DNA from: an uncultured Alphaproteobacteria bacterium
GTDB taxonomy: Bacteria; Pseudomonadota; Alphaproteobacteria; RF32; CAG-239
Direction: 5' to 3'
NCBI GenBank assembly: GCA_944391485.1
Contig: CALXTQ010000013.1
Coordinates: forward strand, 64,809-128,808
Length of the DNA: 64,000 bases
The notes beneath the pieces are model-generated. The model worked only from the letters and a program-made list of their open reading frames with translations, did no database searches and was not told the origin of the DNA. Below are positions 24,369 through 33,389 of the stretch, in pieces. The position numbers and the translations under genes were made by a program. Each line of letters opens with the position of its first letter. The stretch's first letter is position 1.

Positions 24369-24890
24369 ATGCGCAACGCGTTAACAAACAACTCTCCGCA
24401 CCATGGCCGGGACTTGAGCCAGAATAATGCCCATGCCGGCGACCTGCGGAGTTTCATAAATCAGGTCTGGAATCTTTTTGATACGCAAAACAATCCTGAT
24501 TTGAGCGAACTCGAACCGAAAATCGAGGTAACGGAAAATAAAAATTCGGTTACGGTTGCCGCGGAACTTCCGGGAATTGACGAAAAAGACATTGACGTTC
24601 AGATTTCTTCCGACGGCTATCTGTCCATTTCGGGCGAAAAACGTCAGGAAACACAAAACGCTGACAAAAACAATTATTTTTCCGAAATTTCATACGGAAT
24701 GTTTCGCAGAACTATTCCCCTGCCCTGGGATCTGAATTTTGACGAAGCCGGGGCGGATTATGCTGACGGCGTTCTGACTGTATCCATTCCCAAAACGCCG
24801 GACGAACAGCAAAAGTTCAAAAAAATCGACGTCAGGCGCGGGAAAAAGCAAACTGCAAAAAACAAGCAGGAAGAAAACGCCGAAGAATAA
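24369..24890 (+). CDS. Small heat-shock protein, Hsp20/alpha-crystallin family
   Basis: A 173-residue ATP-independent holdase chaperone. The alpha-crystallin domain (about 50-155) includes VTVAAELPGIDEKDIDVQIS, LSISGEKRQE, the FRRTIPLPWDL strand and ADGVLTVSIPK, the A-x-x-x-x-G-x-L-x-x-x-x-P signature. The N-terminal 45 residues and the basic/acidic tail are variable. Last gene of the small stress cluster, followed by a strong terminator. Confidence 0.93.
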   Translation: MRNALTNNSPHHGRDLSQNNAHAGDLRSFINQVWNLFDTQNNPDLSELEPKIEVTENKNSVTVAAELPGIDEKDIDVQISSDGYLSISGEKRQETQNADKNNYFSEISYGMFRRTIPLPWDLNFDEAGADYADGVLTVSIPKTPDEQQKFKKIDVRRGKKQTAKNKQEENAEE

Positions 24891-26753: not shown

Positions 26754-29700
26754 ATGAGTATAAAATTTGGAATCAGAAAAACCATCTCCATATTGACGGC
26801 TGCCGCTTTTTGCATAGCGTCTTCGCCGGCTTACACCGCGCCTCTTCCGCCGCTCAGTCTGGCGGAAATGTACCGCTATGCTTCTCAGGGCAATGTCCGC
26901 GCTCTCCGTGCCGCAACCCAGCGCGGTTTAAACATCGATTCAACGGACAGATACGGCAATACGGGTCTCTGCCACGCCATTAAACAGAACAATTATACAG
27001 CCTACAATGCTTTTCGCGCTGCCGGAGCCAATCCGAGACACCCCTGTATTCAGAACATTTCTCCCCGTCAATATCAGTATTTCATGACTTCAAGCCGTGC
27101 TGCTCCGGAAACGGTTACGTCGCGCGAAGCCTACAAGAAATTTGACGAAGGCGAGTTTATTATTTCCAAAACGACATGGGTTGTCGGCGGCCTTCTGCTG
27201 GCCGGCGGCATTACCGCCCTTGCCCTGAGCGGCGGTGGCGGCGGTGGCGGCGGCGGGGTTTATATCCCGGGCGGCAGCACGACGGAACCTGAAGACAGTC
27301 TGGCCGAAGAGGTCGGCACTTCCTCTCCTTACGAGCCTGAAAACAAACCTTACCAGCCGGTAAAGTATTCCGCCAACAACGGCGCCGAAACAACCAACAA
27401 GGATAATTTCGAGCTGAGCAACAACTCCAAAATCATTGTCAACCAGGACGGCGTCGACACGCCTACTCCGCTTGTCGATATCATCAATTTCAATGACAAT
27501 ATTCTGGAATACGCCAAATATCTTCAGGTGGGCATGAAAGCCGACGACAAATCTTCGGTTTTCAACGGTTCGGCATCCGGCGGCGCCATTAATCCGAAAA
27601 TTACTCTCGGCGACGCGACCATCGGTCTGGCGGCTTTTAACGAAAGCAAGGCGACAAACTACGGAACGGTTAAGATTACGGCGCAAAACGGCACCATCGG
27701 CATGGTTGCCGGCGGATCATCCACAGCCAACAACGTCGGCGAAATCAATATGACGTTCAAAGGCGCCAAAGACAGCGACTCTGTCATCGGAATGTATGCG
27801 GATACTTATTCGCAGCTGATCAACAGCGGAACAATTCTCGGCAACACTGTTGCCGATTCAGGCGCGACCGAGGGTCCGAAAGGTTCTATGATCGGCATGG
27901 AGACCCGGCTTCTCGGCGAGCGAACCTCTGCGGATAAAAGTACGACAACCGCTACCAACAGAGGCAATATTACACTCAGCGCCACGGCTAACAACGTCGC
28001 GTCTTCGGCCAATCTGGTCGGTATGGGCAGCTATATCGACAAATCGTTCCTTGACGGTTCCAATCTGCTGAGCCGCGCAGGCTATATGGAACTAAACAAT
28101 GAAAGCGGTATCAATCTGACCTATAACATTACCGGCTCCGGAACTTATACGCCGACCAATACGCTGAAGGACGGCACCGGCGGCATTATCGGCATGAGAG
28201 CCGACGCCAACACTACCGCAACCAATAACGGAACTATCGGCATTAAGGTTTCGGACGGCGTCAATGATGCTGCCGCAGGCATGCAGTCCGTCCACGGCGG
28301 AAAACTCGTCAACAACAGCAGCATTAACGTTTCGGGAGGCAGCGGCAATTACGGTATGCTCAGCGTCCGCGGAAACGGCAACAATGCCGAACTAGACAAT
28401 ATGTCGCCCGTTCTGACCAACAACGGCACAATAACGGTAGACAGTACGGACGGCTATGGCATGGCTTCTTACAATGGCGGTTCCCTGACCAATGCGGGAC
28501 AGATTACCCTTGTCCAAAAAGGCACGGGTATGCAGGTAAACAACGGTACGATAACCAACAGCGCGGAAAAAGAAATTCTGCTGCAGAACAGCGGTATCGG
28601 CATGGCGGTTAAATCCAATGCTTCCGAAGAAGGAGACGAAGAAGGCGCCGCTTCGACAATTGAAGATCTGAGTAAAGCGGTGGCAAACAACCATGGCACG
28701 ATTACAATTCAAAATGCGGACGGCGCGCAGGGCATATATCTGGAAAACGGCACGGCCAACAACTACGGCGCCATCGATATTTCCAACGACAGCGGCGTTC
28801 CGGCAGGAAACGCGGCGTATGGTATCAAAGCCCTGAAAGGAACTGTTAACAACAACGGTTCAATAACCGTCGATGTTTTGGCTTCGCAATCTGCCGAAAG
28901 CGAAGGCGGTTCTCCGACTCCTATTGATTCATACGGCATTGACGCCGCCGAAGCAAACGTCAACAACAACACCGGCGCCACTGTTACGCTCAAAAACCAC
29001 GGCTACGGCATTGTTACAACCTCGGGACAGGTCATCAATAACGGAACGGTTCTGCTCGAAAACGGCGGTACGGCCATTTCGACGGCAAACGGCAATATTA
29101 CAAACAAAAATACCGTCAAAATTACGGACAACAACACCTCCTCCAGCATCGGCCTGACTTCGGAAACCGGCGTTGTTTCCAATGACGGCGGCACGATTGA
29201 CATTACGGGAGGCGTCGGCTCCGTCGGCATCAAAGCCGGACTGAAAGCAACCAACAGCGGTTCGATTGCAATGACCGGCCGCGACCACACCGGCATTGAA
29301 ATGACCGGCACCGGGATTTCCCTTACCAATTTGTCGGAAATCACGATTACAAGCGATAAACTCAATACTCAGCAGGGAACAATCTACGGTATTAAGGCTT
29401 TGAACGCCGACGCGACCGGAAATATCTTCAACAGCGGAACGATAACCCTGAACGGCTTTACAAATCTTAACCCGCAGGATTCCGGCTACGGCATATCCAT
29501 CGGCGCGGGTTCGGCCGTCAATCAATACCTTGGCGAAATCCTGCTTAACAATCTTTACGGTTACGGCATGGCTACGGAAGGCGGTTCCGTCGAAAACTTC
29601 GGCAAGATTACTCTCGGCTACGGTGGTTACGGATTATACGCCAGCGGCGCCGGCGCCAATGCCATCAATAATTCATCTACGATTAGCGGCACAGGCGAAT

Positions 29701-32700
29701 ACAAGCCCGGAACCATTGACATTACCGTTCCTTCCGGTAAAACCGACATGAATTCTTATGGTATTTACGCGACCGGCGGCGCCGGCGCGCAAAATGCGGG
29801 AACAATCAATATTCACGGCGGCATGACCAATATGCTCTCCGATGCCTACGGCATATATGTTGATTCTGGAAACGGTCTGAACTCCGGCACAATCAACATC
29901 AACGGAACCAAAATTACGGGTATGTATCTGACCGGAACCGGTTCTACCGGAAATATGCAGCTAACGAACCGCGGCGTTGTTAATATGACCGGAGAAGGCT
30001 TGGTCGGCATGCAGGCCACCGCCGGAGAAATCGTCAATGACACCACAGGCATCATCAATATCGGTACAAAAGACGACAGCGGAGTCATTACGACTGCCAA
30101 TAATTCCAAAGGCATGTATATTACGGGAAACGGTTCGCTGTCCAACAAAGGCACTATCAATATCTATTCGCAGAATTCTTACGGTATTTATGACGAAACG
30201 ACCAATGGCGCAACAATTACCAATGACGGCACGATCAGGCTCGACGGCGCCGCAACGGGTTCGGTGGCCATTTATACTGACAAGGGAACCATTAACAATG
30301 ATGCCAACGGCAATATTGTTTCCGGTCTGACCAATACCGTCATTCTGGAAACCAAAGACGGAACTATCAATAACCACGGCACGATTTCTCTTGAAGACAC
30401 TGCTCAGAATTCCGTTGCCCTGAAGCTGACCGGCAGCGGCAGTATTAACAATAAAAACGGCGGCATCATCAATGTCGGCACCAAAACGGCTGATCCATCC
30501 GCCGCAAACGCCAATAATGTCGGCGTTCTGATTCAGAAACCGGTCAAGGGAGCCGGCGACGCGGACGAACCGACGCCGGGAACTTTTGTCAATGAAGGCA
30601 CTATTAATGTTTACACACAGGATTCAATCGGAATCAAAAGCGAAATTGACGATACGAATTATGTTCTGACCAACAACGGCATTATTAATATCAAAGCCGG
30701 AGCTACAGGCTCTAAAGCCATGGAATCCGCCAGCGGAAAAATTACCAACGGCGCCAACGGGCAAATCATTTACGATATTGAGGGTAACGCCATGGAAGCC
30801 GCGGACGGTGTTGCTACCAACGAAGGAACCATTACTGTCAACGGCAGCAATGCCAACGGTATGGCCCTGACCGGAGCCGGTTCTGTCGTCAATACCGGAA
30901 CCATTGACGTTAACGGCGACGGTTCGTCCGGTCTTTACTTTGCTTCCACCGTAACATCGGGAAGCTCCAATTCGGGAACCATCAACCTGAACGGCGCCAA
31001 CACGACGGCCTACAAGTTCGGACAATCTTCCGGTTCGGCGACGATTACCGGCATTATCAACCTGAACGCGGCCGGCACAAGCGTTATCAAGGACGGTTAC
31101 ACTGTTACGAATAATGCGACGGTCAACGTCAATAAAGACACATCGGCATTCAGCACAACCAATTCCACCATTACAAACTCAACCGGCGGCGTCATAAACA
31201 TCAACTCGGATCTCGCCATCGGCATGGAAGCGACCCAAAAAGGCACGATCAGAAATGTCGGCGGAACCGTTAATGTTTACAAAGGCTTCGGCCTCTACGG
31301 ACAAGGTGACGCTTCAAACGCCGTAACCCTCGCCAACGGAAACAAGAGCACGGAAAGCATTATAAACGTTTACGGCACGGGTACGGGTATGATTCTTGAA
31401 AACAACGGCACCGCGACCAACAGTTCCGTTATTAATCTGGCAAGTTCGGATGACGATATTTCGGAAAGCGACGGTATCGCCTCCGGTCCGATCGGAATAT
31501 CCGTATCCGGAAGCCTTGCCCAGGGCATCAACGATACGGGAAGCATTAATGTCAGTACGGATAACGCCGCTGCGATGAAAGCGTCCAACGGCGCAACAAT
31601 TATCAACAAGGCAAACTCGTTTATTACCAATGCGGACAACGCAACCGCCGACAGCATTGTCGGCATGTATGTAGACGGTACGGGCAGCGCCGAAAATCTG
31701 GGAACGATCAAACTGACTGGCTCTTCGGTATACGGTATGTATGTCAACGGCGCGGGAACGGCTACAAACAAAGGTACGATTACGATTACCGAAACTTCTG
31801 CTGACGCTTCGTCTTACGGCATGTACGCCGAAAACGGCGGCCAGCTGGTTAACGAGGGCTCTATTGAAGTCGCTGCCGCCTCCGGTGTCGACAATTCGGA
31901 ACTTTACGGTATGTACGCAACAGGCGCAGGTAGCAAGATTACCAATGCGGCTGGCGCAACTATCAAAGTCAACGGCGAAAGCATGGATGGTTCGTCCTGC
32001 GTTGACGGCGAAGGCTGCGGCAATTTCATCCGTGTCGAAAACGGCGCAACCTTTGAAAACAACGGAACGGTTACTTCCGCCGTTGCGCTCAATTATGATG
32101 AAATGACCGACGGACAAAGCTCCGTATTGGCCGGCAGAGCTTCCTCTTTCATCGGTCCCGAACATTCCGGCACCATTTTGGCTTCGGCCAGCATTGTCGA
32201 AGAAGGCAACCAGAAAGTCTACAAAAACGAGGATACTTTTGTCGGAGAAGACAAAGGCATTGAGGTTAATTCCAATTCTTATATGTTCAACGCTTCCAAA
32301 GAAAAGAATGAAAAAGGAAATGTCGACATTGTCATGACCATGAAATCTTTCAATGAGACCGTCAAAAATAATGAAATTGCAGACTTTTTCACACAGAACT
32401 ATGATGAAGGAAACAATCTTGACCTGTTCTCTTCTCTGAAAACGGCAGCGACAAAAGCCGCTTTTGACAAGGCGGTCGCCGAAGAACTCGGGTTATCTAT
32501 GGTTCCCAGTTTTGCCAAACAGAATCTGGATATAATTAAGGGACTCGACCGTCATCTGAATTCGACGATCCTCGGTAATACCGACACCAAGGAAATCCGG
32601 GCCATGTTCAATTATGTTTACGATTACCGCAAACAGGACGGCAAGGATATGCTGTCCGGCTACGAGGACGAAGCTCAGTCCGCCTATGCCATTGTTGACA

Positions 32701-33389
32701 GAAAGCTGAACAACAACTTCCGTTACGGTCTCGGCATCAGCCTGACAAAATATGAAAGCGATTATGACAACGGTTCTTCCCGGGACGAAGTCATTGCTCA
32801 GATTCTGGCTCCGTTAGTTTATGAAGAAGAAGGCTTAAAAGTTTTGTCCATGCCCCGGTTCGGTATGGGTTGGGGCGAATACAAACGCAGAACGGCCGGC
32901 GCCGAATACAAGGCTGACACCAAGAACTATTACTACGGCATCTCCAATGAAGTCCGCAAAGATATAGATCTCGGCATTGTTACCCTTGAACCGACGGCTG
33001 AGTTCAATGTTCTGGGTCTGTATCAGGACAGCACCAAGGAGAAAAACGGCCTTACCGTCAATTCCAGCAACAATTTGTCGGTTGAAGGCGGTATCGGCCT
33101 CTATGTCAAGAAGTCATTCTCTCTGACCGATGAAAATGATCTGAAACTGCGGTTGGGCGGTACGTATTATCACGAATTCAACAATCCGTATCAGGCCGCC
33201 AAAGCCCGTATTGACGGCATGGCCGGCAGTTACCATATGGACAGTTATGAAACTCAGCGCGACCGCGGCGTCATTACTTTCAGGATGGACTATAAACACG
33301 AAGAATTTGATTTCTTTGTCGAAGCCAACAAGTTCCTGGAAGAAGACGACGGATACTCAATGAACGCCGGTATCGGCTACCGCTTCTGA
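26754..33389 (+). CDS. Giant autotransporter with N-terminal ankyrin repeats and glycine-rich linker
   Basis: A 2211-residue type Va secreted surface protein. Order: signal peptide (1-29, to SSPAYTA); about two ankyrin repeats (35-100, with NVRALRAATQRGLNIDS and G-N-T-G-L-C-H-A); a hydrophobic helix (TWVVGGLLLAGGITALALS, 141-159) running into nine glycines; a long passenger (about 170-1870) of degenerate N-x-G-T-I-T/N-I and Y-G-I/M strands suggesting a beta-helix; then a 12-strand autotransporter barrel (about 1940-2211) ending G-I-G-Y-R-F with terminal aromatic. Ankyrins before the passenger and a possible membrane helix are unusual. Probable adhesin. Its own strong terminator follows. Confidence 0.92.
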   Translation: MSIKFGIRKTISILTAAAFCIASSPAYTAPLPPLSLAEMYRYASQGNVRALRAATQRGLNIDSTDRYGNTGLCHAIKQNNYTAYNAFRAAGANPRHPCIQNISPRQYQYFMTSSRAAPETVTSREAYKKFDEGEFIISKTTWVVGGLLLAGGITALALSGGGGGGGGGVYIPGGSTTEPEDSLAEEVGTSSPYEPENKPYQPVKYSANNGAETTNKDNFELSNNSKIIVNQDGVDTPTPLVDIINFNDNILEYAKYLQVGMKADDKSSVFNGSASGGAINPKITLGDATIGLAAFNESKATNYGTVKITAQNGTIGMVAGGSSTANNVGEINMTFKGAKDSDSVIGMYADTYSQLINSGTILGNTVADSGATEGPKGSMIGMETRLLGERTSADKSTTTATNRGNITLSATANNVASSANLVGMGSYIDKSFLDGSNLLSRAGYMELNNESGINLTYNITGSGTYTPTNTLKDGTGGIIGMRADANTTATNNGTIGIKVSDGVNDAAAGMQSVHGGKLVNNSSINVSGGSGNYGMLSVRGNGNNAELDNMSPVLTNNGTITVDSTDGYGMASYNGGSLTNAGQITLVQKGTGMQVNNGTITNSAEKEILLQNSGIGMAVKSNASEEGDEEGAASTIEDLSKAVANNHGTITIQNADGAQGIYLENGTANNYGAIDISNDSGVPAGNAAYGIKALKGTVNNNGSITVDVLASQSAESEGGSPTPIDSYGIDAAEANVNNNTGATVTLKNHGYGIVTTSGQVINNGTVLLENGGTAISTANGNITNKNTVKITDNNTSSSIGLTSETGVVSNDGGTIDITGGVGSVGIKAGLKATNSGSIAMTGRDHTGIEMTGTGISLTNLSEITITSDKLNTQQGTIYGIKALNADATGNIFNSGTITLNGFTNLNPQDSGYGISIGAGSAVNQYLGEILLNNLYGYGMATEGGSVENFGKITLGYGGYGLYASGAGANAINNSSTISGTGEYKPGTIDITVPSGKTDMNSYGIYATGGAGAQNAGTINIHGGMTNMLSDAYGIYVDSGNGLNSGTININGTKITGMYLTGTGSTGNMQLTNRGVVNMTGEGLVGMQATAGEIVNDTTGIINIGTKDDSGVITTANNSKGMYITGNGSLSNKGTINIYSQNSYGIYDETTNGATITNDGTIRLDGAATGSVAIYTDKGTINNDANGNIVSGLTNTVILETKDGTINNHGTISLEDTAQNSVALKLTGSGSINNKNGGIINVGTKTADPSAANANNVGVLIQKPVKGAGDADEPTPGTFVNEGTINVYTQDSIGIKSEIDDTNYVLTNNGIINIKAGATGSKAMESASGKITNGANGQIIYDIEGNAMEAADGVATNEGTITVNGSNANGMALTGAGSVVNTGTIDVNGDGSSGLYFASTVTSGSSNSGTINLNGANTTAYKFGQSSGSATITGIINLNAAGTSVIKDGYTVTNNATVNVNKDTSAFSTTNSTITNSTGGVININSDLAIGMEATQKGTIRNVGGTVNVYKGFGLYGQGDASNAVTLANGNKSTESIINVYGTGTGMILENNGTATNSSVINLASSDDDISESDGIASGPIGISVSGSLAQGINDTGSINVSTDNAAAMKASNGATIINKANSFITNADNATADSIVGMYVDGTGSAENLGTIKLTGSSVYGMYVNGAGTATNKGTITITETSADASSYGMYAENGGQLVNEGSIEVAAASGVDNSELYGMYATGAGSKITNAAGATIKVNGESMDGSSCVDGEGCGNFIRVENGATFENNGTVTSAVALNYDEMTDGQSSVLAGRASSFIGPEHSGTILASASIVEEGNQKVYKNEDTFVGEDKGIEVNSNSYMFNASKEKNEKGNVDIVMTMKSFNETVKNNEIADFFTQNYDEGNNLDLFSSLKTAATKAAFDKAVAEELGLSMVPSFAKQNLDIIKGLDRHLNSTILGNTDTKEIRAMFNYVYDYRKQDGKDMLSGYEDEAQSAYAIVDRKLNNNFRYGLGISLTKYESDYDNGSSRDEVIAQILAPLVYEEEGLKVLSMPRFGMGWGEYKRRTAGAEYKADTKNYYYGISNEVRKDIDLGIVTLEPTAEFNVLGLYQDSTKEKNGLTVNSSNNLSVEGGIGLYVKKSFSLTDENDLKLRLGGTYYHEFNNPYQAAKARIDGMAGSYHMDSYETQRDRGVITFRMDYKHEEFDFFVEANKFLEEDDGYSMNAGIGYRF

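Follow-up and report, generated by a model that had tools for sequence, protein, structure and literature searches.

Classical (type Va) autotransporters are thought to place their N-terminus outside the cell last. Periplasmic retention modules are established for the LapA-type adhesins, and a type Vb adhesin has been described likewise (excerpts of PMC13090378). Here we analyse a gene at positions 26754-33389 of a 64,000-nucleotide stretch of alphaproteobacterial contig CALXTQ010000013.1 (the whole stretch is called the window below). Its protein resembles type Va autotransporters in having a signal peptide, a long beta-helix-like passenger and a C-terminal 12-strand barrel that is preceded by a helix and ends in Phe, and it differs from them in what lies between the signal peptide and the passenger, first an ankyrin domain, then a hydrophobic helix and then a run of glycines; a BigA_beta domain separates passenger and barrel. 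By its predicted features the gene encodes a type Va autotransporter, with surface export predicted, and the conserved prefix (the module) suggests an undescribed way to hold the front end of an autotransporter within the cell envelope. A preliminary description of the locus had proposed an autotransporter with N-terminal ankyrins, a hydrophobic helix and poly-Gly, and the open reading frame (ORF), profile matches and AlphaFold2 models bear this out; the layout is, as was also proposed, unusual for type Va secretion. We found no description of the module in the open-access literature on ankyrin with autotransporter or type V, polyglycine with autotransporter, or CAG-239 with autotransporter, and term look-up in the excerpts of PMC5895577, PMC3419190, PMC4943182, PMC10414592 and PMC9289746 gave none.

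The domain that follows the signal peptide is an ankyrin domain by both profile and fold. On its own the window protein matches Ank_4 with an E-value of 0.00052 and 20.7 bits, under the gathering score of 22.7, while 37 of the 48 family members match this model at E<=0.1 and a 48-row profile of the module reaches solved ankyrins in the PDB at 1.1e-9. AlphaFold2 places helix pairs at residues 36-56, 71-89 and 97-112, with a block pLDDT (predicted local distance difference test) of ~75-95 over residues 31-120; confidence in the N-terminal model is limited to that part, block pLDDT being just 59-66 over residues 131-160, where the hydrophobic helix is modelled, and the model is poor beyond residue 160. 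VIA alignment of the model to ankyrin chains gave Z-scores of up to 7.6 and a root-mean-square deviation of 3.4 across 100 residues, and among the 50 matches listed nearly all are ankyrin or DARPin chains (Z 6.8-7.6). Foldseek returned no match to the module model at E<=0.001. The module as a whole corresponds to no Pfam, NCBIfam or PHROGs model; we set aside an NCBIfam family, none of which matched, and a phage family, as no PHROG was found at E<=1.

The preliminary description had asked whether the module recurs in related genomes, and it does. Residues 1-220 match 45 of 90 relatives: 43 of the 50 that belong to the same family and two that do not, one of which (G075) gives a weak generic ankyrin match. 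With a profile from a 29-row alignment (A1), the module was found in 106 of 152 family genomes, representing 15 of 16 genera, at 1e-8. In a sample of the class 43 of 385 genomes match at 1e-4, many of them through short generic ankyrin stretches, and we discounted such weak matches (e.g. L083, L084, L086, L087) as instances of the module; the matches that span most of the model fall in families f1, f91, f116, f74, f40, f69 and f158, and the module thus also occurs in a few other small-genome alphaproteobacterial families. The sole match in a phylum sample of 398 genomes at 1e-9 is the window's own. A single-protein search of named genomes gave no confirmed match, and a narrower alignment (A2) gave 47 loci in named genomes, which are mainly gut metagenome genomes with 'Azospirillum sp. 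CAG:239' as the nearest. One of these loci (L100, JAISVX010000003.1) groups by sequence with the alphaproteobacterial family although its genome, probably a mislabelled bin, is titled Lactobacillaceae.

Within the module, Y40, A43, R57, G58, G68, T70, G71, L72, C73, F87, G91, C98, Y107 and F110 are invariant in 48 sequences. The two cysteines were present in every member counted, with a spacing of 25 in 48/48 and 37/37 sequences and of 24 or 25 in 12/12 sequences from outside the family, and in the far member L157 they are the sole two cysteines of the protein. Cys73 stands where the TPLH motif of ankyrins has its His. The pattern used to retrieve the 47 named loci includes Cys73 and not Cys98, so Cys73 is favoured there, and the pattern behind the count of 37 likewise needs Cys73 and not Cys98 (41 loci less the four it missed, L056, L068, L069 and L070, the last of which was counted later); a separate script that requires both cysteines at the given spacing caught 47 of the 47 loci. 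Alignment A4 holds 33 of the 47 loci, those with a complete frame of >1000 aa. Of 561 pairs, 547 are more alike in the module than in the barrel, the mean identities being 0.55 and 0.35, respectively. Compared with 14 relatives, the window protein shows 43-79% identity in the module and 30-48% in the passenger, and in just one of the 14 (L120) is identity higher over the C-terminal 411 residues than over the module. L112 and L114 share 84% identity in the module and 22% at the C-terminus; L114 has no PF03797 match at 1e-3.

What follows the module varies. In the window protein and its closest relatives it precedes beta-helix passengers, in L154 EGF-like repeats, and in L156, L161, L162, L070 and L173 a subtilase. 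In ten far or unusual proteins Pfam gave no PF03797 match at 1e-3, and their export barrel is therefore assumed from layout and C-terminal sequence. Eight proteins of ~150-180 aa (L059-L062, L064, L065, L169, L170) are stand-alone signal peptide-ankyrin forms; six of them have a hydrophobic helix at the C-terminus, which is not clear in L059 and L170. L164 consists of a signal peptide, the Cys-pair ankyrin domain and then an OMP_b-brl domain (1.8e-11), with neither helix nor poly-Gly; small outer-membrane barrels have both chain ends in the periplasm. The subtilase protein L163 (G193:C7:26500-32000) has the same helix and poly-Gly and no ankyrins, their place being taken by a stretch of 75 residues that is rich in Pro and Lys (10 K, 13 P), a type of sequence that crosses the periplasm in TonB. 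Two further loci, L165 and L166, show poly-Gly followed by short tandem repeats (GGGDV and GDDGT, respectively) that run to the contig end, and in L151 (G009:C47) an ankyrin-like prefix heads an open frame of 3235 residues, 248 of them cysteines.

From these comparisons we infer that the prefix is a biogenesis or topology module and that its ankyrins work in the periplasm. Being found ahead of unrelated passengers, the module most likely serves a shared step, export or anchoring, rather than the binding of one ligand, and in the L164 fusion and the stand-alone proteins the ankyrin domain would be periplasmic by topology. The preliminary description had left the ankyrins facing either the periplasm or the outside; the comparative evidence favours the first of these. 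Our leading reading, a tentative one with a little under an even chance, is that the ankyrin domain is retained in the periplasm with the helix or the poly-Gly in the outer membrane. Sec would export the entire precursor. The helix cannot serve as a normal stop-transfer anchor because the downstream barrel must reach the periplasm, and being marginally hydrophobic and flanked as it is by charges, it could well pass through Sec: in 47 proteins K and R average 2.3 in the 15 residues before it and 0.74 in the 15 after it, and this marginally hydrophobic helix, with its basic N side and the neutral glycine run on its C side, would not be held in the inner membrane. The two-cysteine ankyrin domain would then fold in the periplasm and bind an envelope partner, the β-barrel assembly machinery (BAM) would assemble the barrel, and the passenger would exit C-terminus first. 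The folded ankyrin domain would be left behind, the helix and poly-Gly would settle either in the outer membrane itself or inside the pore of the barrel, and the passenger would be tethered twice, at its N-terminus through the ankyrin domain and at its C-terminus through the barrel. As to the crossing itself, a Gly/Ala helix that leaves the closing barrel sideways to traverse the outer membrane in alpha-helical form, or a poly-Gly that threads the pore beside the pore helix, with the N-terminus periplasmic in either case, is a doubtful arrangement on present evidence.

Several observations weigh against retention as we picture it. With its N-terminus retained, the protein would have two chain segments cross one barrel or its seam, and we know of no type Va protein in which this occurs. 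A Cys73-Cys98 disulfide is the natural guess, an unproven one, and a search of 28 family genomes turned up no DsbB and one of 17 no VKOR; a DsbA-like Thioredoxin_4 protein is present in 17 of 17, and the pair may be oxidised by another route or may form a redox or metal site. Basic residues follow the helix in some members (L102, L117, L122). On the scale used, the hydrophobicity of the helix fails to separate the autotransporters (median 0.84) from the helix-bearing stand-alone forms (-3.76 to 1.37) and overlaps that of the membrane helices of a neighbouring membrane protein; the proposal that autotransporter helices are clearly weaker than stand-alone ones failed on this comparison. A run of at least four Gly is lacking in 3 of 48 members, one of which, L126, is a stand-alone form or has no passenger. 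The window genome has four other autotransporters, and the three whose N-terminus was covered (all but L149) start with a plain signal peptide and lack the module. L164 and L163 are each a single case. As a separate observation, the family f1 genomes, with DsbB detected in 0/28, carry very cysteine-rich surface proteins.

Three other explanations have to be set beside retention. The helix and ankyrins might act as a transient brake that slows release from Sec or the inner membrane, or holds the precursor near BAM, so that the module keeps a long passenger unfolded and is later cleaved or secreted. The independence of the module from passenger type and a helix near the insertion threshold are consistent with such a role, and extended signal peptides, which are specific to the type V secretion systems, have been studied at the inner-membrane step (excerpts of PMC8151025). 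Yet an ordinary signal peptide with a true stop-transfer helix would strand the passenger in the cytoplasm, neither the stand-alone forms nor the L164 fusion carries a long passenger whose export could be slowed, and a conserved processing site was neither noted nor sought; we regard a brake as rather doubtful. We judge it unlikely that the module is instead the last part to be exported and forms the distal tip of the passenger on the surface, with ankyrins that bind a ligand or a helix that enters another membrane. An autotransporter N-terminus does meet this fate by default, ankyrins act in binding and poly-Gly could serve as a stalk linker. The module is nonetheless more conserved than the barrel, as would not be expected of a freely exposed tip, it is common to unrelated passengers, and the domain occurs in stand-alone proteins without any export barrel. 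Moreover, the 24-residue loop between the cysteines, in a folded domain, is longer than the closely spaced pairs usual in type V systems (excerpts of PMC8151025).

The module could also be an ordinary relic of a fusion, in which a stand-alone signal peptide-ankyrin gene joined the upstream end of an autotransporter and turned the original signal sequence of the latter into the internal helix, with no special role for the prefix. A helix with a basic N-flank does resemble a signal sequence and free-standing modules do exist, but conservation in 106 of the 152 family genomes and 15 of the 16 genera with the cysteines fixed, and 43-79% module identity where passengers are 30-48% identical, make this very improbable.

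Neither of two simpler accounts of the N-terminus applies. An extended signal peptide (ESPR) is ruled out, since the window protein has no match to PF13018 in Pfam at E<=1 and, in place of the conserved 25-residue extension, has only nine residues ahead of the hydrophobic core, the open frame beginning two codons 5' of the ATG. An annotation artefact is ruled out by the retention of frame and module in 106 of 152 family genomes. Both had been named in the preliminary description as ways in which its claim could fail. The N-terminal Sec signal peptide and its cleavage, after SPA26 or AYTA29, were called by eye from the sequence.

The passenger was described beforehand as a long degenerate beta-helix, and the motif N/G-x-G/A-[TASVI]-[IVL]-x-[LVIM] indeed occurs 27 times in it, against 1.9 (maximum 8) in 500 shuffles. 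The barrel matches PF03797 at 3.7e-24 when the C-terminal 430 aa are searched, and PF03797 is unreported at E<=1 when the full-length protein is run against Pfam; TIGR01414 matches at 3.2e-10. Structure prediction had been suggested as a check, and AlphaFold2 models the barrel with a mean pLDDT of 92, 12 strands and a long preceding helix, in addition to the ankyrin fold. The window genome holds five PF03797 matches, that of the gene studied here lying at G000:C13:97418-98125. An HSP20 gene (window 24369-24890) lies near the autotransporter gene and is directly upstream on the same strand at six loci of relatives (L102, L105, L106, L108, L109, L117); the two are possibly linked in function. 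Of the 47 named loci, 11 (L091-L101) have a divergent DUF2157/GDYXXLXY pair next to the gene.

Table 1. Features of the autotransporter gene and its predicted product, in window positions.
Feature	Position	Strand	Basis
Autotransporter gene, 2211 aa	26754..33389	+	single uninterrupted ORF
Signal peptide, ~residues 1-29	26754..26840	+	n-region K4, R8, K9; hydrophobic core 10-24
Ankyrin domain, residues 34-115, two repeats and capping helix pair (two to three repeats)	26853..27098	+	profiles, AlphaFold2, fold alignment
Invariant Cys73	26970..26972	+	alignments A1 and A3; count
Invariant Cys98, 25 residues beyond Cys73	27045..27047	+	alignments A1 and A3; count
Gly/Ala-rich hydrophobic helix, residues 139-158	27168..27227	+	AlphaFold2 helix; conserved W..GG..L.GG..AL; marginal hydrophobicity
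Poly-glycine, residues 160-168 (9 Gly)	27231..27257	+	sequence
Degenerate beta-helix-like passenger, ~residues 180-1790	27291..32123	+	repeat motif vs shuffles
BigA_beta sandwich domain, between passenger and barrel	32208..32342	+	PF25783 6.2e-06 (full-length), 3e-07 (C-terminal part)
Long helix ahead of barrel, residues 1917-1941, expected pore helix	32502..32576	+	AlphaFold2
12-strand autotransporter barrel, residues 1948-2211, terminal Phe	32595..33386	+	PF03797, TIGR01414, AlphaFold2

If retention in the periplasm is correct, the passenger would form a loop on the cell surface with both of its ends fixed, and a periplasmic ankyrin domain, possibly redox-gated by its Cys pair, would tie it to the envelope. 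A conserved prefix with a domain used by relatives in the periplasm would be a new route of passenger retention in poorly studied gut bacteria, and would make the number of chain segments that cross the barrel or the BAM seam directly testable.

Such an arrangement would share with the LapA-type adhesins and the type Vb adhesin an N-terminal folded periplasmic domain followed by a segment that crosses a conduit (excerpts of PMC13090378). It differs from the LapA type in its ankyrin fold, in having a type Va barrel in the same chain and in that the LapG protease (PF06035) was found in 0 of 28 family genomes (5 of 48 among all genomes searched), and Lap-type proteolytic release is therefore unlikely. 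With intimin and invasin (type Ve) it would have in common a small N-terminal helical periplasmic domain ahead of a membrane barrel (excerpts of PMC3467248), but there the barrel is N-terminal and the passenger C-terminal; in the window protein this order is reversed, so that a periplasmic N-terminus would need a second crossing of the outer membrane. In two-partner adhesins a disulfide-bonded domain is said to stay in the periplasm and anchor the protein (excerpts of PMC8151025), and a periplasmic ankyrin domain with a bonded Cys pair would be similar; there the domain stands at the C-terminus and the pore is a separate TpsB protein, whereas the putative retention domain of the window protein stands at the N-terminus of the chain that ends in its own barrel.

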